From the NCBI GenBank assembly GCA_016779945.1, contig JADHMR010000007.1:1-45255 (forward strand): a stretch of 45,255 bases of DNA, written 5' to 3'. The stretch is from Bacteroidia bacterium (lineage in GTDB: Bacteria > Bacteroidota > Bacteroidia > NS11-12g > UBA9320). A program made the translations under genes and the position numbers. This document shows positions 10,328-38,699 of this stretch, piece after piece. A model generated the notes under the pieces. It was given only the letters and a program-made list of their open reading frames with translations. It ran no database searches and had not been told where the DNA came from. Numbering within the stretch: the stretch's first letter is position 1; every line of letters starts with the position of its first letter.

Positions 10328-12766
10328 CTAAAATTTAAATTTATAGGATATAGATGGTATTACAGGAAATAAAGAGGTTTGCTGAACAACTTTATTGCTA
10401 GTAGGTACACCATTTTGCACTTCTATCTTATCAATAACTGACAGAAAAAATGGATTTTTCCTATTATAGACATTGTAAGCACCTACTGAAATAGTTCTCT
10501 CTCCCCATTTCTTTTTTTTATGAAAGTTTAGACCTAGATCTAACCTATGATAAGCAGGTAGTCTGAGGTTATTTCTTGTTGGGTAATATTCTATTTCACC
10601 AACACTACCTTCATCAATACCATTAATATTGCCGTTTATATTGACCGATGGATATCTAGATTCCAGAAAAGTCATGTTATTACCTGTTCCATAAACCCAA
10701 GTTAGACCAATGTCAAAGTTGTCAGAAAATTTATGTGACATAACTATTGAAAAATCGTGTCTTCTATCAAACTTATACGGATACCATTTCCCAAAATTAA
10801 CCCCTTCAAACTTTCTCTCACTAAATGAAAGCGTATATCCTATCCAACCAGTAGTTTTACCTTTTTTCTTCTGAATAAATAACTCTGCGCCATAAGACCT
10901 TCCAATTCCATTAGTATCTACTTTATTTTTCCAATCATCAAATCCAATTATTTCAGCCCCAGGTTTAAGCGTTATTAAGTCACTCATTGTTTTGTAATAA
11001 CCTTCTATACTGACTTCTATCAAACCATTTAAGAAGTTTTTATTAGCAGCAAAGGCTACTTGTTTGGAATATTGTGGAGAAATAGAATCGGTACTCGGCA
11101 CCCAAATGTCGGTTGGTAATCCAGCTCCACTACCAGTCAACAAGTGTATATTTTGTTGCATTTCAGCATAGGAGGCTTTCAACGACCAATCTTTATTAAT
11201 TAAATAACGTGATGAAAAACGAGGCTGAAAAGAATAGTAGGTTTTATTATTGGTATTAAAATAACCTAGGTGGATTCCCAAATTGACTTTCAATTGATCA
11301 TTAACTTTTATATCATCTTCGACATAAAAAAAAGCATCATTACTTTCTAATGCTTCAGAAAAATTAAAAGTGGTGTCATAAGGTACTTGATAATTTTCTA
11401 TTCCAAGTGAATCTCTTTCGTAGGTACTGAGGTACAACACTAAAGAACCGGGATAAAAGTTATGACGTACATAGTTTAAACCAAATTTGATGTAATGATT
11501 TGGATTAGGTAAATAATCAAAATCAAATTTTGCGCCATAGTCCTTAACTCCTGAAAAATAGTTGAAATTAGTAGTGTCTGTATCAGTTGTATATGGTGTT
11601 AGTTCTGATGTATAGCTATCAAATATGGTATTAAATTGGTATTTGCTATAAGTCAAAGTTGTATTGGCGAACAGTTTGTTAGAAAACAGATGATTCCATC
11701 TTAAAGAAGAAGTGATATTTCCCCAATCTAAACCAAAATCATTTCTAGAAGTCGATTGATAATTGGTATTATTGATTAATGAACTATATTCATATCCTTC
11801 GGACAAATAAAATTTATCTTTTCCTAGATAAGCACTCAAATACAGTCTGTCTTTTTCAGAAAATTTATGATTTAACTTAGTATTCAAATCATAAAAATAA
11901 TAACCTGCAGGGTTACCATCGTTAGCACTTCTAATAAATGGTTGTGCTAAAACATCAATGTAAGTTCTTCTTCCTGAAACGATAAATGAAGTCTTATCTT
12001 TTATTATTGGACCTTGTAATGTCAATTTTGAGGATATCAAACCTATGCTTCCTTCACCTTCAATTTTCTTCATATTTCCTTCTTTCATATCTATTTCTAG
12101 AACAGAAGATAAACGTCCACCAAAACGAGCTGGATAACCTCCTTTTGTTAACCTTACATTTTTTATAGCATCGGCATTAAACACCGAAAAGAAACCAAAT
12201 AAATGTGAGGCATTGTAAACAGGCACTCCATCTAAAAGAATTAAGTTTTGGTCAGGACCGCCACCTCGAACATAAAAGCCACTTGTTCCTTCACCACCGG
12301 ATTGTACTCCTGGCAATAACTGAATGGCTTTTAAAACATCTACTTCACCTAATAATGCTGGTATATTTTTTATTTGTTGTACTGGTACTTCTACTATACT
12401 AGTTTGTGTTCGCTCAACAACAGTTTCTTCTGCTACAATAGTTACCTCACCAATATCAGTACTAGAGCTCATTAATTCAACATTAAGTGAAATGTTTTTG
12501 TTAAGGTTTACACTTTTTTTCAAAGTTTCAAAACCAATATAAGTAAACGAAATTTCATAACTCCCCTCAGGTAAAGTAAGGCTATAAAAGCCGTATGTAT
12601 TGGACGTTGTGCCGACAAGTTTTTCTTTAACTAATACATTTACACCAATCAAAGATTCTCCATTTTCATTATCATTAATAAAGCCACTAATGGTATATTT
12701 TTGTTGAGAAAACGAGTAGAGAGACATCGCTATCATAGCAGATAGGATTAAATATTTTTTCATCAT
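10328..12766 (-). CDS. TonB-dependent outer-membrane receptor with CarboxypepD_reg-like N-terminus
   Basis: The 812-residue receptor has a signal peptide (to about 20, SFSQQK), a carboxypeptidase-regulatory-like domain (about 24-107), a plug (about 118-230) with the conserved YVRGGGPDQNLILLDGVPVYN and FGGRLSSVLEIDM segments, and a long beta-barrel ending in aromatic F-K-F. TonB-ExbBD energy drives substrate uptake. Pairing with the DUF4249 lipoprotein downstream is conserved in Bacteroidota. No TonB box or anti-sigma/sigma regulator is evident nearby, so the cargo remains unknown. It lies 39 nt downstream of pyrF. Confidence 0.92.
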   Translation of the reverse strand: MMKKYLILSAMIAMSLYSFSQQKYTISGFINDNENGESLIGVNVLVKEKLVGTTSNTYGFYSLTLPEGSYEISFTYIGFETLKKSVNLNKNISLNVELMSSSTDIGEVTIVAEETVVERTQTSIVEVPVQQIKNIPALLGEVDVLKAIQLLPGVQSGGEGTSGFYVRGGGPDQNLILLDGVPVYNASHLFGFFSVFNADAIKNVRLTKGGYPARFGGRLSSVLEIDMKEGNMKKIEGEGSIGLISSKLTLQGPIIKDKTSFIVSGRRTYIDVLAQPFIRSANDGNPAGYYFYDLNTKLNHKFSEKDRLYLSAYLGKDKFYLSEGYEYSSLINNTNYQSTSRNDFGLDWGNITSSLRWNHLFSNKLFANTTLTYSKYQFNTIFDSYTSELTPYTTDTDTTNFNYFSGVKDYGAKFDFDYLPNPNHYIKFGLNYVRHNFYPGSLVLYLSTYERDSLGIENYQVPYDTTFNFSEALESNDAFFYVEDDIKVNDQLKVNLGIHLGYFNTNNKTYYSFQPRFSSRYLINKDWSLKASYAEMQQNIHLLTGSGAGLPTDIWVPSTDSISPQYSKQVAFAANKNFLNGLIEVSIEGYYKTMSDLITLKPGAEIIGFDDWKNKVDTNGIGRSYGAELFIQKKKGKTTGWIGYTLSFSERKFEGVNFGKWYPYKFDRRHDFSIVMSHKFSDNFDIGLTWVYGTGNNMTFLESRYPSVNINGNINGIDEGSVGEIEYYPTRNNLRLPAYHRLDLGLNFHKKKKWGERTISVGAYNVYNRKNPFFLSVIDKIEVQNGVPTSNKVVQQTSLFPVIPSISYKFKF

Positions 12767-25914: not shown

Positions 25915-28404
25915 ATGAGTCGAAAATTATTTTACATTTTATTATTTCAGTTTATTTTTTTGAAAATCACTTTCGCTCAAATTTATGCGGGTGAGGATAT
26001 TACTCTTTGTACACCTCAGGACACCAATTTAACGGTACAATATACCCCTAACTCTTCTTCTTCAACGTCAAACTATTCAATAGAAGATATTGAGATAGAT
26101 ATGGAAAGCTTAACTACCCCTACTACATTAGGATACTTAACAGATGATTTTTTTTCCGAAACTATCGACATTGGTTTTAACTTTTGTTTTTATGGAAATG
26201 TTTATAATCAATTGATAATATCAACCAATAATTACATCAGCTTTGAAACAGGAGATGCCAATAGCTATTCGCCCTGGTCTACTCATTCTTTTGATTCTGG
26301 AATGTTAACACCTCCAAGTGTTACAAATGCAATAATGGGGCCGTGGATGGATTTAGATCCTTCTTATGGTGGTGAAATAACATATAGTCTTGAGGGTAAT
26401 GCACCATTTAGACGATTCATAATATCATTCAAGGATTTCGGATATTTCAGCTGCACAAATATGCAGTACAATGGGCAAATAAAGATTTTTGAATCTACAA
26501 ATGTAATCGAAACACATATTCAAGACCAACCACTTTGCTCTGATTGGAATGCGGGTAACTCTGTTTTAGGAATAGTGAATCAAGATGGCTCGAACTTCTT
26601 AATTCAAGATGGTTGGAACAATACTGCTATGACAATAAGTGATGAGGCCTTTCGTTTCACTCCAGCGGATGGTGAAAATAATGTTGAATGGTATGACGAT
26701 TCTGGCAATTTCATAGGCTATGGTACTAATATGTTAGTTAGCCCTGACACAACGACTACATATACCATAAGCGTTAATGAATGTCCTGAAAGCTATTCAG
26801 ACGAAATAACAGTATTTGTATCATCTGCCTTATTACTAGAAGCCGTCATTGATGATAACGATTGTCCCGGTGAAATTTTGGGAGCAATAGAAATAAACGT
26901 TTCTGGCAATACATCTCCAATTTCATATTCATGGACTAATAGCAATGGAAGTTTCTCATCATCTGAAAAGAATATATACAATTTAGAAGCGGAAACCTAC
27001 CATCTATCAATTACTGACACGCTAAACTGCCAAACAAATAGAACTTACACCATATCAACACCTCCTGACCCTATAGTTATAGATGGAGTAATAGATTCTG
27101 TCAGTTGCTTTGGATTTAGTGACGGGGCAATACAAACTAATGTTAGTGGAGGTAATCCGCCCTACAATTACAACTGGTTTGGAAATAATCTAACAAACTG
27201 TAATTCTTCATATGCAAATAACTTAAATGTAGGAGAATATAAACTTGTAATATCAGATAACAAGGATTGTAAAGATTCTGCAAGCTTTAATGTGCTAGAA
27301 AACACCACCATATCAATCACTTCTAGCGAACCTAAATTTAATGGCTATAACATTAAATGTTATGGTGGAAATGCTTCTGTAATAAACGAGATAGAAGGCG
27401 GATTAAGTCCATACAAGTATTATTGGTTAAATTCAGAATCTGGCGATACCATTTCACGAGATTTATCGAATAATGAACTCAAAGCTGGAGAATATCAGTT
27501 CTTAGTAAAGGATATGAACGATTGTTTAAGTATCAAAGAGTTTACAATCATTCAACCTGAAGAATTAGTCATTCATGTAAATAGCATTAAACACAAAAGC
27601 TGCACCTATAACAACGATGCGTTCATTGAAATAAATATTTCAGGAGGCCCCGCTTTTTCTATTGGCTCACTAGATTTTATGTCAAAATCTTTTTCATGGA
27701 GTAATGAAGGGGGTATATTTCACTCTAACAATCAAAATATTTACAACATATCAGAAGGGATTTATACTGTTAAAACTACAGATGCTAACCAATGTACAAC
27801 TGAAAAAGGAATTGAAATTAAACAACCTCCAAAGGTCCTAGCGAAATATAGAACTATTGACGAAACTTTAGGCGTTAGTTATCCTTTTGCTAATTTATAT
27901 GATGACTCAGAAGGAAATATAGTAGAATGGTACTGGGAATTAAGTAATGGACTGATAGCTAATAATGAAAATATTTACAATATAGATTTATCAAATATTG
28001 ATTTAGACTCATTGGGTTATATGTATTTTGACATAAAGCTTGTTGTAATCGATGAGTTTGGCTGCACAGATAGTACTTATGGTAAAATAGCTGTCAAGGA
28101 CGAACACAGATTTTTCATCCCTAATGGATTTAGTCCAAACTTCGATGGTAAAAACGACTATTTTAAAATTGAGTATCACGGCATAATTGAGAGTACTTTC
28201 ATGTTTGAAATATATGATCGTTGGGGAGCTAAACTATTCAAAACAAATGACCCAAATTTTGAGTGGGATGGGACAAGTCAAAACGGCAAAAAATTACCTA
28301 CAGGAACGTATTTATACAACTTAAGTTATCAAGATTTTGAATACAGGATTTATGATAGTTCAAATTGCCCAAATTGTATAGGAAATATTACTTTGATAAG
28401 ATAA
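25915..28404 (+). CDS. SprB-repeat surface protein with gliding-motility-type (type B) C-terminal domain, copy 1
   Basis: The 829-residue protein has a signal peptide (about 1-22), a cysteine-bearing N-terminal beta domain (about 25-250, including IGFNFCFYGNVYNQLIISTN), and an Ig-like unit (about 258-305). Four SprB-like repeats follow (about 316-390, 395-470, 480-550, 562-640; for example SCFGFSDGAIQTNVSGG), then a PKD-like segment and a type B C-terminal domain (about 738-829, with FIPNGFSPNFDGKNDYFKI and YDRWGAKLF). Type B domains direct secretion through T9SS. SprB is the gliding adhesin of Flavobacterium, but this protein is far shorter. The next gene is its paralogue. Binding target unknown. 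Confidence 0.88.
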   Translation: MSRKLFYILLFQFIFLKITFAQIYAGEDITLCTPQDTNLTVQYTPNSSSSTSNYSIEDIEIDMESLTTPTTLGYLTDDFFSETIDIGFNFCFYGNVYNQLIISTNNYISFETGDANSYSPWSTHSFDSGMLTPPSVTNAIMGPWMDLDPSYGGEITYSLEGNAPFRRFIISFKDFGYFSCTNMQYNGQIKIFESTNVIETHIQDQPLCSDWNAGNSVLGIVNQDGSNFLIQDGWNNTAMTISDEAFRFTPADGENNVEWYDDSGNFIGYGTNMLVSPDTTTTYTISVNECPESYSDEITVFVSSALLLEAVIDDNDCPGEILGAIEINVSGNTSPISYSWTNSNGSFSSSEKNIYNLEAETYHLSITDTLNCQTNRTYTISTPPDPIVIDGVIDSVSCFGFSDGAIQTNVSGGNPPYNYNWFGNNLTNCNSSYANNLNVGEYKLVISDNKDCKDSASFNVLENTTISITSSEPKFNGYNIKCYGGNASVINEIEGGLSPYKYYWLNSESGDTISRDLSNNELKAGEYQFLVKDMNDCLSIKEFTIIQPEELVIHVNSIKHKSCTYNNDAFIEINISGGPAFSIGSLDFMSKSFSWSNEGGIFHSNNQNIYNISEGIYTVKTTDANQCTTEKGIEIKQPPKVLAKYRTIDETLGVSYPFANLYDDSEGNIVEWYWELSNGLIANNENIYNIDLSNIDLDSLGYMYFDIKLVVIDEFGCTDSTYGKIAVKDEHRFFIPNGFSPNFDGKNDYFKIEYHGIIESTFMFEIYDRWGAKLFKTNDPNFEWDGTSQNGKKLPTGTYLYNLSYQDFEYRIYDSSNCPNCIGNITLIR

Positions 28405-28516: not shown

Positions 28517-31006
28517 ATGAGATACTTAACCCTTTTACTCACACCACTATTTTTTTGTATTAATCATGCAAACGCTCAGATTGATGCAGGAACAGATGTC
28601 ATTATTTGTGACATTGAAAATGTAGATTTATCTGCCGATTACACCCCTAATTCTATTGGAACAAGCGATTATACCATTGAAAATATTCCTATTGATATGG
28701 ATCCTTTTAACTCAGGAACTAATCTAAATGGTCTTGGCGATGATATTTATTCAGGGGTTATTAATATAGGTTTTGATTTTTGTTTCTACGGAAATATTTT
28801 TAATCAACTTTTAATATCCACCAATAATTATATAACCTTCGATCTGACTAGCGCAAGTGCATATTCTCCGTGGAACACTTATGCTATTCCAAGTGCTGCA
28901 CCCCCAGGACAGGTAATTAATGCTATTATGGGTCCTTGGATGGATTTGAATCCAAATAATGGTGGTGGGTTATACTACAATGTTTACGGTGTTGCTCCAT
29001 TTAGAAGGTTTGTAGCGTCTTTTGAAAACTTTGGTTATTTTAGTTGTGCAGGATTACAATTTAATGGTCAAATTAAGATTTTTGAAACAACCAATGTCAT
29101 CGAAATTCATATTCAAGATCAACCATTGTGTGCTAATTGGAACAATGGCGAATCGGTACTAGGCATAGTAAACGAAGACGAAAGCCAATTTTTAATTGAA
29201 ACGGGTTGGAATAATACTCAATTAACTGGCAACAATCAAGCATTTAGATTTGTACCTGATGGAGCAAATAACTCAAACGTAGTATGGCAAGATGATATGG
29301 GTAATGTAGTTGGTAATGGTACAGACATTACTGTATCGCCGTTAGTTACAACAACCTACACTGTAACAGCTTCCGAGTGTCCAGACACCTATACAGATGA
29401 TGTAACCGTATTTGTTTCCACTCCAGTTACAATTGATGCTGTAGTTGACGACAACATTTGTCCAGGAGAAATTTTTGGTGCAATTGATATCACAACCTCT
29501 AATGGTACTGCACCATTCAGTTTTGATTGGACTTCTGTAAATAATAATTACACATCAACTAGCGAAGACATTAGCAACCTAGTATCGGACACTTACAACT
29601 TAACGGTTACAGATGATTTAGGCTGTGAACATACAGCAGGTCCTTTTACGATATCTCCACCACCACAAGATATTGAGATTTTTGAATCCATAGACCCTGT
29701 AAGCTGCTTTGGATTTAGTGATGGAATAATTAGTACTACTATAAGCGGTGGTACAACTCCATATACTTATAATTGGACTGGAGACAATCCGATGACAGGA
29801 AATGGTACAACAATAATAAGTGATTTAGCATCTGGAAATTATCAGATTACTGTAACTGACAATAACAATTGTCAAAACTCAGCCGCTTACTTCTTACCTG
29901 AAAATTCTTCTATTTCACTGAGTAGTAATGTATCTGATTATAACGGTTTTAATGTAAGGTGTTATGGCGGAGACGATGCTTGGGTGGCTTGTATAGCAAG
30001 TGGAGGTATGTTACCATACACCTACCAATGGGTTGATGAATCAACTAATTCTATTATATCCGATCAAGCTGATGCATATAACCTTGTTGCTGGAAGCTAT
30101 ACATTTACCGTAGAAGATGCTGAAGGCTGTCCTAATAGCATAACTTTTGATATCACTCAACCAGATTCATTATCTTTAGACATAGCCAACTATAGCCACA
30201 AAAGCTGCACCTATAATAACGATGGCTTTATAGAGGTGTCATCTTGGGGAGGCCCTGACAACCCACCTTATTCTGAGCAATTTTTACCGATTTCATTTGT
30301 TTGGAAAGGAGAAAATTCGTTCTACTCTACTGATCAAAATATCTATGATTTATCAGAAGGAACTTACACTATTACGGTTGAAGATGCTAACCAATGCATT
30401 AACGATTTAACTTTCGAAATTACACAACCGCCTTTCGTAATAGCTGACTACAGAGTTCTTGACGATACGGTAACAACCAACTATCCTTTAATCAACTTAT
30501 ACGATAATTCAGAAGGTAATGTAATAGAATGGCAATGGGAATTAAGCAATGGATTTACTGCTAATTCACAAGATGTTATGAATTTAGATTTATCAACAGA
30601 TTTGGATAGTTCAGGTATTAAATATTACGATTTAAAATTAGTGGTTACTGACGAATTCTTGTGTAAAGATAGCATCTATGGTACTTTAGCTATAAAAGAA
30701 GAACACACTTTATTTGTTCCTAATGGTTTTACTCCAGATTTGGACGGCAACAACGATACGTTCAAAATATTTCATCATGCTATGAGAACAGAAACGTTTT
30801 CTATATCTATTTTTGATAGGTATGGTTCATTGGTTTTTCAATCTAATGATCCGGATATGGCGTGGGATGGCACGAATATCAGAACTGGGAGTCCACTTAT
30901 TACAGGAACTTATTCTTATGTTCTTAGCTATCAAGATTTTGAATACCGAATTTACGATCACACCAATTGTGAAAATTGTACTGGTACGATTACTTTAGTA
31001 AGATAA
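28517..31006 (+). CDS. SprB-repeat surface protein with type B C-terminal domain, copy 2
   Basis: This 829-residue protein is homologous to the preceding gene from end to end. Shared blocks include NIGFDFCFYGNIFNQLLIST, FGYFSC, HIQDQPLC, SCFGFSDGIISTTISGG, HKSCTYNNDGFIE and the C-terminal domain (FVPNGFTPDLDGNNDTFKI; CENCTGTITLVR). Domain order is the same: signal peptide, N-terminal beta domain, Ig-like unit, four SprB-like repeats, PKD-like segment, type B sorting domain. It lies 112 nt after copy 1, with no clear terminator between, so both may be on one transcript. Most differences are substitutions spread along the protein, which suggests an old duplication. Confidence 0.88.
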   Translation: MRYLTLLLTPLFFCINHANAQIDAGTDVIICDIENVDLSADYTPNSIGTSDYTIENIPIDMDPFNSGTNLNGLGDDIYSGVINIGFDFCFYGNIFNQLLISTNNYITFDLTSASAYSPWNTYAIPSAAPPGQVINAIMGPWMDLNPNNGGGLYYNVYGVAPFRRFVASFENFGYFSCAGLQFNGQIKIFETTNVIEIHIQDQPLCANWNNGESVLGIVNEDESQFLIETGWNNTQLTGNNQAFRFVPDGANNSNVVWQDDMGNVVGNGTDITVSPLVTTTYTVTASECPDTYTDDVTVFVSTPVTIDAVVDDNICPGEIFGAIDITTSNGTAPFSFDWTSVNNNYTSTSEDISNLVSDTYNLTVTDDLGCEHTAGPFTISPPPQDIEIFESIDPVSCFGFSDGIISTTISGGTTPYTYNWTGDNPMTGNGTTIISDLASGNYQITVTDNNNCQNSAAYFLPENSSISLSSNVSDYNGFNVRCYGGDDAWVACIASGGMLPYTYQWVDESTNSIISDQADAYNLVAGSYTFTVEDAEGCPNSITFDITQPDSLSLDIANYSHKSCTYNNDGFIEVSSWGGPDNPPYSEQFLPISFVWKGENSFYSTDQNIYDLSEGTYTITVEDANQCINDLTFEITQPPFVIADYRVLDDTVTTNYPLINLYDNSEGNVIEWQWELSNGFTANSQDVMNLDLSTDLDSSGIKYYDLKLVVTDEFLCKDSIYGTLAIKEEHTLFVPNGFTPDLDGNNDTFKIFHHAMRTETFSISIFDRYGSLVFQSNDPDMAWDGTNIRTGSPLITGTYSYVLSYQDFEYRIYDHTNCENCTGTITLVR

Positions 31007-31070: not shown

Positions 31071-33020
<1,950 letters not shown>

Positions 33021-33130: not shown

Positions 33131-34828
33131 TTAAAAACGGAAAGACAAGCCAAAAAAGACTTGTGGACCTAAGACTGGATAATTCTCCCAAATCTGATAG
33201 CCGCCAATCAGATTTTGAGCCTTAAAATAGGCTGAAAAAATAGAATTGTATTTGTACTCTAAAGCAAAATTAACATCTATAATATCATTCAATAATGGCG
33301 CAGTAGAGACTGAATCAGTAGCGGTTGAACGATCAAATGCACCAACTAGCTCAATTTGAGGTAAGATTTTATCTCCTATATTATAAGAAAAGCCTAATTT
33401 GGAAACTATACTAGGCTTATAAGCATAGTCTTGTAAAGAATCTAAGTCGTACTTATGATAATCTAATTGCAGATTTAGATTAGCGTTAGAATTCATCTCC
33501 CAATCTAGCTCGGACGACCATAATAAATGATTGACATCATCATAAACGACCTTAAATTTGTTTTGATAAGTTGAATAATCATCTAAATCGAAAAAGGACA
33601 TATCCTGTACTCTAGCGTAAGATAATTCTGAAGACCAATTTATATTTGCTCCTAAATAAGAATTCATGCCAACATAAACATCGTATTTAATCTGACTATT
33701 TATGAGGTTTAAGCCACCACCATCTGTTGTCAAAGCGTTTAAAATAAAAGGATTCTTTTTACTTAATGTCCAATACGAATTTTCTTCAAGACCACCTCTC
33801 ACACCAGCATATGCGCTTTGATTCTTTTCTGAAAAAATATAATCGTAATGAATTTGTGGAAAAATAGCATATCTAATATCAGCAGAATCTCTAGAATCCA
33901 TTGATTTAAGCTCAAAGCCTAAATTCAAATAACCACCACCAATTTCCCTACTCACAGATGGGCTAAATGTTAGTATTAATTCTTTTGCTAGACTATCTGC
34001 GAAGACGTATTTATCAGAAAGATTGTTGAAGTCATAATCCATAGCCAACTCTACATTATAGTCGTTCAAACCCACAGTCTGTTGGGCAGACAATAAGCAA
34101 TAAACCGTATTTTCAGTCTGTTCATTTAAATCGTAAGCAAATAGTTTAGCATAATAGGTAGGCTTACTCTTGTCTGTATTTTTACTTTGAAGTGATACAC
34201 TCATTGTTGAATACCCCCAATATTCTTGAGTAAATTTTTCTTCCAATTTTAAATTAGGATTATAGCCATAAGCTTGAAAAACATTTCCTTGTCTAGAGAA
34301 ATAAGCATTCATTATACCAAAATCAAAATCTTTTTTGACATAGGCAGAAAAATCTGTTTCTCTAAATGCTGCCGATACTTTTTGTTCGTTATCAAAAGCA
34401 CTTTTAACATCAGAATACGACTCTACATAGCCTAAAGCTAAACCATAAGTCAAAGATTTATTTCTATCTGAACTATAATAGATCTTAGAGGTAGGCATAC
34501 TCATATTACCAACTCCTCCATAGATGTAAGTATGATAGAGTTTAGATAATGGTTCTCCTTTAATCTTAGCAGATTTAATAGGATTCAGCTTCAACTGACT
34601 TTCAAATCGACGGTTTAATGGCTTGTAACTGATATTTTTAGAGATTTTAATGGTATCTGATAGCTTTGGGCTATCAGCCAATTTGATAGCGTCTGGCACA
34701 ACAGGAATAAAAGATTCTGTAACTTGAACTTCTTGAACTCCTAAATCCCCATCTGTTTGGGCAAAGATGCTCTGACCTATAAGAACACATCCAAGAATGT
34801 AAAATAATACAAAGGTTTTATTCTTCAT
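33131..34828 (-). CDS. Putative outer-membrane beta-barrel protein, partner of the TPR protein
   Basis: The 565-residue protein has a signal peptide (about 1-23, ending IFAQT), a short periplasmic-looking N-terminus (VQEVQVTESFIPVVPDAIKL), and then alternating polar/aromatic strands, ending in the outer-membrane-typical VFFGLSFRF. No plug domain is seen, so it is not a full TonB-dependent receptor, although databases often group such barrels with them. It starts inside the last codons of the 1023-residue TPR gene (11 nt overlap), which implies coupled translation and joint function in the outer membrane. Substrate unknown. Confidence 0.75.
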   Translation of the reverse strand: MKNKTFVLFYILGCVLIGQSIFAQTDGDLGVQEVQVTESFIPVVPDAIKLADSPKLSDTIKISKNISYKPLNRRFESQLKLNPIKSAKIKGEPLSKLYHTYIYGGVGNMSMPTSKIYYSSDRNKSLTYGLALGYVESYSDVKSAFDNEQKVSAAFRETDFSAYVKKDFDFGIMNAYFSRQGNVFQAYGYNPNLKLEEKFTQEYWGYSTMSVSLQSKNTDKSKPTYYAKLFAYDLNEQTENTVYCLLSAQQTVGLNDYNVELAMDYDFNNLSDKYVFADSLAKELILTFSPSVSREIGGGYLNLGFELKSMDSRDSADIRYAIFPQIHYDYIFSEKNQSAYAGVRGGLEENSYWTLSKKNPFILNALTTDGGGLNLINSQIKYDVYVGMNSYLGANINWSSELSYARVQDMSFFDLDDYSTYQNKFKVVYDDVNHLLWSSELDWEMNSNANLNLQLDYHKYDLDSLQDYAYKPSIVSKLGFSYNIGDKILPQIELVGAFDRSTATDSVSTAPLLNDIIDVNFALEYKYNSIFSAYFKAQNLIGGYQIWENYPVLGPQVFFGLSFRF

Positions 34829-37800
34829 CTTCTAAAGTATTTTCTTCTTCAAACAATTCGTTAAGTTCAATATCGTTTAAAAGATTGATTATTAATTCGT
34901 CTTTTTGCGAGTCTTTTTGAGCCTCTTCATTGAGCAAATCTATTTCTGCTATTTTCTGTAGACATATTTCTTTTAAATCTTCTCCCTGATAGTTATCTAC
35001 AATACTTTGCAAGGTAGCTTTAGACTGAAAAAGGTTGTCTTTTTCTTTGTAGATATCAGCTAATAAAATAAACGATTTAGCAATGTAATAGTCACTGTAA
35101 TAGTTTTCAGCAAGTTCAAAAATTATCTTTTCTGATTGGTCAAAATCACTTTCAAGATAAGCTAAGTAAGCTAATTGGTATTTGGCCTCCGAGCCTATTT
35201 CAGACTGATTTTGTTCTGTAATAATTTGGTAATCTTTTTTGGCTAAATGAAATTCTGATTGGTCAAAATAATTGTTGGCTATTATTAATCTGGCTTCATT
35301 GGCCAATTCGGCATCAACCTTATCCAAATCGAGAACTGCCTTGGCAGATTCTAATAAACTAGCATTCATGTCCAAATTTTTATAGCAGTAGAACAGGTTT
35401 ATCGTAGCTTCTCTTAAAAGACTATTTTCTTGAGCAATTGCTTTTAGATTTGTATAGTGCAAGGCGGCAACACCATATTCTTCTTTTTTAAATTGTATTC
35501 GTGCCAAACGGCTTAATGCTCTTTCGGTAAATATATTTTGCGGAAATTCTAAGACGTTCAAATAATCCTCTACTGCTAAATCAGGATTTGTAGCAAAGAT
35601 AGACTCCGCTTTGTAAAAATGAGCATTTAATTTGAAGATAGGAGCATCGAATTCGTTCAGATAGTTGTCAAAAGCATCGACAGCCTTTTCGTAATCTTGC
35701 TTGAGGTATAAGTTTTCTGAGGCTTCATAACTTATGGAGTCTTTGGACGCTATATCTACACTTACATTAGACAACTCCCCTACATAATCGAAGTACGACT
35801 TCACATCTCCTGATTCTACAGAAACATTTTTATAAGCTATTAAAGCTTCTTTAGACTCTTTAGTATTAGGATAATTTTCAATAACTGATTTGAAATAATA
35901 TATGGCTGAATCTGACACGCTTTCGTTATAAAAATTCAGACCTAATTTTAAAAGAGCCGTTTTTACCAAAATACTTTTGGGGTGTTTTTTTATCAAGTCT
36001 GACAATAAAGCTACGGACTCGTCCTGTCTATTCTCATTCAAATACATGGTACTCAAATTTAGCATAGCATCGTCGTTATATAACGATTGCGGATAATCGG
36101 AAATTAACTGACTAAGTGCCGTTCTTTTTTTATCTCTCTGATTAGTTAGCCCAAAACATTGTATTTGTTGATGTATAGCATAATCAACGTCAAAGGCTCC
36201 ACTTTCTTCTGCCAATCCATAAAACTCTTGAGCTCTGTTATAGTCTTGAGTCATAAAATAAGCATCTCCCAATCGGAGATAAGTATCGGTTTGTTTTTTA
36301 ATATCGCTAGATAAGCTAATGTATTTTCTGAACCAAAGAATAGCATCTTTATATTTAGAAGATTGATAGTAAGTATATGCTAAAGAATAGTGAGCTTGTT
36401 TGTATTCTTCAAGTAAGAAAGAACCGTCTTTTATATTAAAAGCTTTGAAAGATTCAATAGCATTGCCGTAATCTTCAATGTGATAATAAGCTTCGGCTTT
36501 CCAATAGTATGCCAAAGCAAACAACTTATTGTCTATGGGGTATTTTATTGACTTATCAAACCATGTGATGGATTGTTGGTAACGTTTGTTCACAAAGTGT
36601 TCGGCAGCCAAATAATAGCTTAACTTCTGATACACTTGCTGTTGAGGTAAAGACATACTGCTTAGGGCTGACAACTTATCTACCGCAGTCTGAAAATCTT
36701 TTGTAGAAGTGTAGGCTTTAATGAGTAAATCTTGCACATAATTAATATGAACAGATTGTGGATAGTCTTCAATAAATTGCTCAATACTTTCAATGGCGTT
36801 GTCGTAGGATGATTGTTGCTCGTAAATTAACTTTACAGAATTGAAAGCGGCATCTTCTTTAAGTGTGTAATCAAAATTAATAGCTGAAGCATATTTAAAG
36901 GCATTAATAGCTAACGGCTTTTTATCTAGCAACAAATAACATTGACCTAATTGATGAGCAGCAAACTGAGATAAACTATCTTCATCCAATAAGACATCTT
37001 CAAACTGAGCAGTGGCTTTGTTATAGTCCTGCAATTCATAATAAGCCAAGCCCAATTGATATTTTTCTATTCTATCCAATGAACTGGAAGCATCATCTGA
37101 CATATAATCTTCAAGATAATCAATGGAGTTTTGGTATTGACCCAAAGCAAAGTAGGCATCACCAATCAATCGTTTCAATTCTTTATCTCGTTTGGGGTTA
37201 TAGCTATTTTCCAATAGAGGCTTTGCAAAGTCAATTAGCTCAGTGTATCGCTCTTGATAATAATAGATGTGAGTAATGTAATACTTACTTATGACACCTA
37301 ATGTCGGAGTACTGACTAACTGCTGAAAACCTTGTAGTGCTGTAGCATAGTTCCCTTCTTCATATGCCATATGTGACAGACAATAAGTCGTCAACTCTGA
37401 ATAGGTAAATGAAATGGATTTGATATCAAAGAAAGCCAATTTAGCTTCTTCGTATTTATTTAAAGAAAAGTAGGAATAGCCTAAGCGAAAATAATACATG
37501 GCTTCTTCGTGAAACTCTAAATCATACACATTGACATTACTCAATTTAGCAATAACCTTGTCATATTCTTTGTTTCTGAAATGCAGTTTGGACAATGCAA
37601 TATACGTCTCTTTATTATACTTACCATTTGGATAATTTTCAAGATATTGCTCGAGTCTAAATTGGGCTTCATCGTTAAACAATTCTAAGGCACAAATGGC
37701 CTGATGAAACTTAGCCCATTCCACATCTGATTCATTGACATCGGGACATTCTTGCAAGGCGTCAGCCATAGAATATACTAAGGCATACTGTTTGTTTTGC

Positions 37801-37889
37801 AATAGATGTTTTATCTGGTCAACGTCACAATTCTGAGCAAGAGAGATTTGACTAATAAGTAAAAAGAAAATGTAAACTCTAAGTCTCAT
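34818..37889 (-). CDS. Large TPR-repeat exported protein
   Basis: The 1023-residue protein has a signal peptide (about 1-18, ending SLAQN) and many TPR-type helical repeats from about residue 25 to 980, with typical A/Y/F-rich patterns (YYFRLGYSYFSLNKYEEAKLAF; AYYWKAEAYYHIEDYGNAIESF). It ends in an acidic tail (EENTLEDEE). TPR proteins of this size act as periplasmic scaffolds for multi-protein assembly. It overlaps the barrel gene downstream by 11 nt. SprE of T9SS is also a TPR protein but is a lipoprotein; this one has a cleavable signal without lipobox. The function is not known. Confidence 0.82.
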   Translation of the reverse strand: MRLRVYIFFLLISQISLAQNCDVDQIKHLLQNKQYALVYSMADALQECPDVNESDVEWAKFHQAICALELFNDEAQFRLEQYLENYPNGKYNKETYIALSKLHFRNKEYDKVIAKLSNVNVYDLEFHEEAMYYFRLGYSYFSLNKYEEAKLAFFDIKSISFTYSELTTYCLSHMAYEEGNYATALQGFQQLVSTPTLGVISKYYITHIYYYQERYTELIDFAKPLLENSYNPKRDKELKRLIGDAYFALGQYQNSIDYLEDYMSDDASSSLDRIEKYQLGLAYYELQDYNKATAQFEDVLLDEDSLSQFAAHQLGQCYLLLDKKPLAINAFKYASAINFDYTLKEDAAFNSVKLIYEQQSSYDNAIESIEQFIEDYPQSVHINYVQDLLIKAYTSTKDFQTAVDKLSALSSMSLPQQQVYQKLSYYLAAEHFVNKRYQQSITWFDKSIKYPIDNKLFALAYYWKAEAYYHIEDYGNAIESFKAFNIKDGSFLLEEYKQAHYSLAYTYYQSSKYKDAILWFRKYISLSSDIKKQTDTYLRLGDAYFMTQDYNRAQEFYGLAEESGAFDVDYAIHQQIQCFGLTNQRDKKRTALSQLISDYPQSLYNDDAMLNLSTMYLNENRQDESVALLSDLIKKHPKSILVKTALLKLGLNFYNESVSDSAIYYFKSVIENYPNTKESKEALIAYKNVSVESGDVKSYFDYVGELSNVSVDIASKDSISYEASENLYLKQDYEKAVDAFDNYLNEFDAPIFKLNAHFYKAESIFATNPDLAVEDYLNVLEFPQNIFTERALSRLARIQFKKEEYGVAALHYTNLKAIAQENSLLREATINLFYCYKNLDMNASLLESAKAVLDLDKVDAELANEARLIIANNYFDQSEFHLAKKDYQIITEQNQSEIGSEAKYQLAYLAYLESDFDQSEKIIFELAENYYSDYYIAKSFILLADIYKEKDNLFQSKATLQSIVDNYQGEDLKEICLQKIAEIDLLNEEAQKDSQKDELIINLLNDIELNELFEEENTLEDEE

Positions 37890-38033: not shown

Positions 38034-38699
38034 ATGTCACTAATTGAACTCAAACACGTCGATGTATTTCAATCCGACAGACTAATCCTAAGCGATGTAT
38101 CTTTCAGCATACAACCCACCGAATTTGTTTACCTCATTGGTGCTACTGGTAGTGGCAAAAGTAGTTTGCTTAAAACCTTGTATGCCGAACTTCCTATGAA
38201 AAAAGGTCTTGGTGAAGTGGTGGACCATCAACTTTTTGAAATCAAGAAATCTATGATTCCTTATTTGAGAAGGAAAATTGGCATTGTTTTTCAAGATTTT
38301 CAACTCCTTACTGACCGTTCGGTAAGAGAAAATTTAGACTTTGTGCTCAAAGCCACTGGTTGGAAAGATAAGAAAGAGATTAAAGATAGAATTGAAGAAG
38401 TCTTAACGAAGGTGGAGATGCTCGACCACATTGATAGAATGCCATTTGAACTATCTGGCGGCGAACAACAACGCATTTGCATAGCTCGTGCCTTACTCAA
38501 CGACCCTAAACTGATATTAGCTGATGAGCCAACAGGAAATTTAGACCCTGAAACCACAGATAAGATTCTCAATTTGATTCACGATTTGTGTGCCAATGGC
38601 TGTGCTGTGTTAATGGCAACTCATGAGCATAACTTATTGAATCGTTTTCCGTCAAAAGTCTTGAAGTGTGAAGACGGCAAAGTCGCTTTTACCGAATAG
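38034..38699 (+). CDS. ftsE: Cell-division ABC ATPase FtsE
   Basis: The 221-residue ABC ATPase has Walker A GATGSGKS (36-43), the Q-loop VFQDFQ (Q87), signature LSGGEQQR (140-147) and Walker [10 protein letters not shown] (160-168). With FtsX it forms an ABC complex that activates peptidoglycan hydrolases at the division site. Close relatives are LolD and other small export ATPases, so FtsE is the likely, not certain, assignment. ftsX is not next to it; in Bacteroidota the two are often apart. It is followed directly by a GT2 gene (TAGATG, no gap). Confidence 0.82.

Follow-up and report, generated by a model that had tools for sequence, protein, structure and literature searches.

The window analyzed here is the whole 45,255-nt stretch of one contig in a Bacteroidia assembly (G000:C136, 1-45255). 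The two genes under study overlap on its reverse strand and are listed below with their neighbors and with the parts of the barrel protein referred to later.

34818-37889 (-): gene for a TPR protein of 1023 aa (ORF list, Pfam, AlphaFold)
33131-34828 (-): gene for a plug-less, 22-strand outer-membrane barrel of the TonB-dependent-transporter type, 565 aa (AlphaFold, Foldseek, VIA-align)
34818-34828 (-): 11-nt overlap where the TPR gene ends and the barrel gene starts
34535-34759 (-): N-terminal tail of the mature barrel protein, residues 24-98 (AlphaFold, alignment)
33134-34534 (-): barrel domain, residues 99-565 (AlphaFold, VIA-align)
38034-38699 (+): divergent ftsE-like ABC ATPase gene (labeled from its sequence without a family search)
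31071-33008 (-): gyrB, the first gene downstream of the barrel gene

The stop codon of the TPR gene (34820-34818) lies inside the barrel gene, whose ATG occupies 34828-34826; both reading frames and their overlap sit exactly where a preliminary description of this DNA had placed them. The overlap suggests that the two genes are translationally coupled. Since the next gene upstream of the TPR gene is a divergent one of the ftsE type in 32 of the 73 named loci in which that position is visible, and gyrB is among the next two genes downstream in 35 of 64 named loci with a visible downstream gene, the arrangement in the window is a common one. No ExbB/TolQ or ExbD/TolR genes were seen next to the pair in the window.

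The contig is most likely a contaminant, foreign to its assembly bin, judging from its sequence: it brings a second full-length GyrB gene, 72% identical to the other one in the assembly, and its TPR protein is unlike those of the genus. The assembly's other TPR gene (on contig C79) is 56 to 65% identical to genus relatives, whereas the window's is 28 to 30% identical to them and 29% identical to the C79 gene. GC content did not separate the contig from the assembly (0.342 versus 0.336). Our first search for relatives, centered on this assembly, found barrel relatives apart from the TPR gene and was misleading because the contig appears foreign. Elsewhere in the window, two adjacent 829-aa secreted-looking proteins (25915-28404 and 28517-31006, both on the forward strand) form an apparent tandem duplicate, and each ends in what we take to be a gliding-motility-type C-terminal domain.

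Architecture of the two proteins

The TPR protein begins with a signal peptide ending in SLAQ, continues through about 26 TPR-like helix pairs and closes with an acidic, disordered C terminus (residues 994 to 1023). Its Pfam matches, 15 families among those listed, are mostly TPR models (TPR_6, 1.1e-31). The AlphaFold model, predicted from an alignment of the window's protein with 53 of 75 collected relatives, has about 53 helices, a pLDDT of 88.5 and a pTM of 0.45, a value that makes its overall curvature unreliable; Foldseek matched it to generic TPR superhelices only. Against NCBIfam, the protein scored 149.2 bits over eight stretches with tol_pal_ybgF (TIGR02795; cut-off, 90.1), which the repeats alone may explain, 66 of 383 bits with CpoB (NF008068), and a weak 61.5 bits with the PorW/SprE model (cut-off, 250). 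P. gingivalis PG0449, considered as a candidate relative, is a different TPR protein of 441 aa.

The barrel protein matched nothing in Pfam or NCBIfam at E<=1, and as a single sequence it matched no PDB sequence. A 68-sequence profile gave eight PDB matches, all of them TonB-dependent (siderophore) receptors (best E, 0.0039). AlphaFold, given the window's protein with 67 of 69 collected relatives, predicted 22 strands of at least 8 residues between residues 100 and 564 (mean pLDDT, 85.1), and the best Foldseek matches of that model were BtuB and other TonB-dependent transporters (1.1e-15). VIA-align placed it on FhuA with a Z of 22.1 (rmsd 3.1, 428 aligned) and on BtuB with a Z of 22.0 (rmsd 3.5, 390 aligned; model residues 97-565 on BtuB 135-594). 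Because the alignment begins at BtuB residue 135, only the barrel part is represented and the plug, the defining feature of the TonB-dependent transporter family, is absent. The preliminary description would have counted a structural match to a known transport family against an undescribed system; such a match exists for the fold but does not extend to the plug.

In place of the plug, residues 23 to 98 are mostly disordered in the model. This tail is nevertheless conserved, with two motifs (about residues 31 to 60 and 83 to 98) whose conservation of 0.46 and 0.53 compares with a barrel mean of 0.39, and with prolines P54 and P42 identical in 68/68 and 66/68 sequences, respectively. Residues 33 to 37 form a conserved E-V-x-V-V-like stretch that may resemble a TonB box. 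A glutamine directly follows the predicted signal peptide of both proteins (Q19 of the TPR protein, invariant in 54 aligned sequences; Q24 of the barrel, present in 66/68). On sequence grounds, this is the "Q-rule" of Bacteroidetes export, which PMC10653852 associates with pyroglutamate on exported proteins.

Distribution and pairing of the two genes

The preliminary description had proposed a unit of a large periplasmic TPR protein and a plug-less barrel, with conservation of the pair in Bacteroidota as a check; the structural comparisons above and a profile search of a 198-genome Bacteroidia draw bear out a conserved pair of this kind. The barrel was found in 185 of these genomes and the TPR protein in 182; by hand count, 178 had both, 9 neither, 7 the barrel only, and 4 the TPR protein only. 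As a lone query, the window's barrel had relatives in 307 of the 395 Bacteroidia genomes searched. The barrel is usually present as one copy per genome. The TPR gene lies directly upstream of the barrel gene in all 29 top-match loci inspected, in 77 of the 80 loci that come from named records (two of the three misses are contig ends), and in 129 of the 135 class-draw genomes for which both genes were listed. The last count, drawn from 146 listed genomes for each gene (of 185 and 182, respectively) and the 135 common to both, is the least biased, since the 34 inspected loci and the 80 named loci are best matches and favor pairs like the window's. Spacing in the 77 named loci ranges from -98 to +132 nt, with open reading frame starts assigned mechanically.

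Fisher tests on joint absences, from hand-counted tables, gave p values of 6.7e-9 for the TPR and barrel genes, 1.9e-4 for the barrel gene and the TonB-like gene described below, and 2e-7 for the TPR and TonB-like genes; these tests are not independent, since a small number of families (f41, f45) account for many of the absences, and genes near-universal in the class leave little power in co-occurrence. The three f41 genomes (G078, G117, and G150) are otherwise complete and lack the TPR, barrel, and TonB-like genes altogether. Family f45, whose genomes are likewise otherwise complete, lacks the TPR gene throughout, and its barrel matches are weak only.

Across the phylum, strong barrel matches are confined to the same class; those elsewhere are mainly weak, many covering the C terminus only, and we read them as probable general homology to TonB-dependent transporters and not as members of the family. 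A scan of viral contigs found no relative. In two genomes of family f11 (G048 and G093) the TPR-barrel pair is present twice, complete each time and on separate contigs; the second copy is possibly a paralogous second system. Interruptions of the pair are few: a 127-aa open reading frame on the same strand separates the two genes in L305 (6326-6709 of G228:C1:234000-248000). In L220, near a contig end, the barrel's expected place after the TPR gene is taken by an open reading frame (11364-11714) that we presume to be transposase-like.

Gene runs with motor components

The TPR and barrel genes are a nearly obligate pair, and in several families they lie in one run with genes for an HU-SPOR protein, an ExbB/TolQ channel protein, an ExbD/TolR protein, and a TonB/TolA-shaped protein. 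The full order, TPR-barrel-HU/SPOR-ExbB-ExbD-TonB-like-folC on one strand, occurs in L290 (3790-13592), L291, L292, and L293 of family f42 and in L308 and L309 of f16. It occurs also in L296 (f51) once an exbD gene behind an antisense open reading frame, seen in L335, is counted; our greedy choice of open reading frames masked some short genes in this way (exbD in L296, probably also exbD in L297, and HU in L263). Shorter versions are present in L294 and L295 (f12), L297 (f51), L301 and L303 (f37), and L307 (f68); L294 has TPR-barrel-HU-TonB-like, and L307 lacks exbB and exbD. By profile, HU does not directly follow the barrel in L302, L304, L305, and L306.

In other families the barrel keeps these neighbors without the TPR gene. 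The order barrel-HU-ExbB-ExbD-TonB-like-folC stands without an adjoining TPR gene in L298 to L300 (f40) and in many f1 and f2 loci: in f1 and f2 the barrel gene lies apart from the TPR gene and is followed by an HU-CCDC81 protein gene in 21 of 26 loci, often with the ExbB, ExbD, TonB-like, and folC genes after it. By coordinates read by hand, the barrel and TonB-like genes share a strand and lie no more than about 3 kb apart in at least 20 genomes of 7 families. An HU gene was found in only 1 of the 80 named TPR loci, and in most genomes the pair lies away from the HU, TolQR, and TonB-like genes. As folC in the runs and gyrB elsewhere also adjoin these genes, adjacency may be incidental.

Domain matches within the runs comprise HU-CCDC81_bac_1/2, MotA_ExbB, and ExbD. 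HU proteins from families other than f1 and f2 have two HU-CCDC81 domains, with matches to both models in 5 of 5 cases, and all five also carried a C-terminal SPOR domain above the cut-off; SPOR fell just below the cut-off in the L290 and L309 proteins, was above it in L307, and was found in none of three f1/f2 proteins at E<=0.1. The L309 protein had no HU match in Pfam. A hydrophobic segment is present in the 29 of 30 loci in which the HU reading frame was shown. PF18174 (HU-CCDC81) was detected in only 151 of the 198 genomes. CCDC81-HU proteins may link the membrane to the nucleoid; a search of open-licence PMC papers for them found nothing.

The channel protein was matched better by the TolQ model than by ExbB in three of three cases (1.6e-26, 2.5e-25, and 5.3e-18), all below the cut-off. 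The TonB-like family is present in 181 of 198 genomes. Among 30 loci fetched for it, 24 have exbB as well as exbD beside the TonB-like gene, and folC usually adjoins too. The protein has an N-terminal hydrophobic segment, a Gly/Pro-rich linker, and a small C-terminal domain. Pfam TonB_C matched weakly in two of eight proteins (0.017 and 3.5e-4) and in none of the other six, tolA_full matched below its cut-off (1.4e-5), and the C terminus aligned with TonB C-terminal domains in weak PDB matches (E 0.2-2.3).

A candidate trans-envelope system and its rivals

The linked set may resemble Tol-Pal in several respects. It includes a putative TolQ/TolR-type channel in the f42, f16, and f51 runs (TolQ is the best model for the channel protein, below its cut-off), a putative transducer of TonB/TolA shape, and a SPOR domain of the peptidoglycan-binding type, and its TPR protein scores above the YbgF cut-off, possibly through its repeats alone. 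It differs from Tol-Pal in that TolB (TIGR02800) was above the cut-off in none of the 198 Bacteroidia genomes, where weaker matches occurred in 197 (2 of 14 controls were above the cut-off), and in the length of its TPR protein, roughly fourfold that of the CpoB model (263 positions). OmpA-like domains are too widespread to identify a Pal lipoprotein on their own. Tol-Pal, for its part, has no counterpart of the integral TonB-dependent-transporter-type barrel or of the HU-domain protein. PorE, proposed in PMC12204202 as a Tol-Pal-like outer membrane-peptidoglycan tether of Bacteroidetes, shares TPR repeats and this proposed role with the pair, and the proposal counts against giving the pair that task; as described there, however, it is a single multidomain lipoprotein whose parts resemble CpoB, TolB, and Pal, whereas the pair consists of two proteins, one an integral barrel, with a glutamine and no lipid-bearing cysteine after the signal peptide.

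We favor, at a little short of an even chance, a reading in which the pair makes up the outer-membrane and periplasmic half of a trans-envelope system that is motor-driven, class-wide, and Tol-Pal-like in its task. In its favor are the conserved pairing, the shared gene runs, the lack of a TolB match above the cut-off in the 198 genomes, and the ftsE-type neighbor of many pairs. The linkage is one of gene order, that is, of association and not of contact, and the function we infer. A more specific version is appreciably more tentative: the pair, the HU-SPOR protein, the TolQ/TolR-like proteins, and the TonB/TolA-like protein may form a six-protein machine that serves Bacteroidia in place of the Tol-Pal system they seem to lack, with the plug-less barrel instead of Pal at the outer-membrane end and a cytoplasmic HU protein providing a tie to the nucleoid or divisome. 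On the favored reading, proton flow through the TolQ/TolR-type channel would move the TonB/TolA-like arm across the periplasm, where it would engage the conserved barrel tail, the TPR superhelix, or both. The SPOR protein would target the assembly to denuded septal peptidoglycan, and the assembly would join the outer membrane to the wall and inner membrane and pull the outer membrane in at division. The barrel would then act as a membrane anchor, or as a tail-gated pore, and not as a nutrient importer.

The main rival, which we hold to be unlikely, is an energized export or assembly gate: a plug-less pore, closed by the tail or the TPR protein, through which the TolQR/TonB-like motor drives Bacteroidia-specific cargo such as surface lipoproteins or a polymer. 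A transporter fold without its plug fits such a gate, as do the typical adaptor role of long TPR proteins, the motor genes in the same runs, and a class-wide presence suited to a general cargo route, but envelope and division mechanics are a better fit for the SPOR and HU domains and for a channel that leans toward TolQ, and no linked cargo gene was found in the loci examined. The preliminary description had proposed a secretion or assembly unit made of the two proteins. The conserved pair stands, but that reading was incomplete, as the pair appears to be the outer part of a larger motor-linked set, whose genes suggest envelope or division mechanics no less than secretion or assembly.

Also unlikely, to nearly the same degree, is that the pair is real and conserved but of unassigned role, and that where some families place it near HU/TolQR/TonB-like genes, the order of core genes has brought them together by coincidence. 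In favor of this, the runs also take in folC and gyrB, both housekeeping genes, and the pair and motor genes are separate in most genomes. Against coincidence, families f1, f2, and f40 keep the barrel beside HU with the TPR gene elsewhere, and f42, f16, and f51 keep all six genes together, as expected of one set rearranged.

It is improbable that the pair is accessory to one of the established Bacteroidota machines, whether type IX secretion (T9SS)/gliding or BAM. These machines, with BamG/BamH in the case of BAM, are likewise class-wide outer-membrane machinery that includes barrels; the T9SS motor protein GldL is equally widespread (187 of 198 genomes), and the weak PorW/SprE score of the TPR protein points the same way. 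However, the pair is not tied to T9SS, because the f34 genomes G071, G111, and G175 keep both genes without GldL and the three f41 genomes show the reverse, which upholds the separation from T9SS claimed in the preliminary description. For BAM, PMC12611786 gives the F. johnsoniae complex as BamA, D, G, H, M, and P, with a 14-strand FadL protein, BamG, as second barrel; an identification of our 22-strand, TonB-dependent-transporter-type barrel with BamG was rejected on this difference. Separation from SusCD is likewise supported, as the barrel has no plug and the Pfam scan of its TPR partner found no SusD family.

Least probable, by a narrow margin, is a TonB-dependent transporter for ordinary nutrient uptake whose plug was lost and which has a TPR helper: the 22-strand barrel (Z 22) is that of BtuB and FhuA and the pair's genomes hold a TonB-like partner family, but the plug is replaced by a conserved disordered tail, the barrel is coupled to a 1000-aa TPR protein, it is usually single copy and near-universal, unlike substrate-specific transporters, and no SusD-like or substrate genes recur beside it in the loci examined.

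The proposal that the pair is undescribed agrees with a search of open-licence PMC papers, which found nothing on it; a word search of the TamL paper (PMC12045153) gave no match.

Bacteria of this class are major inhabitants of the gut, the mouth, and the sea. How their outer membrane stays attached to the wall and invaginates during division, when no Tol-Pal system can be identified in them, is an open question in PMC12204202. With a motor attached, a near-universal, usually single-copy outer-membrane barrel would offer a direct handle on that question and a drug target specific to the class, and would be an example of a nutrient-transporter barrel put to a different use.
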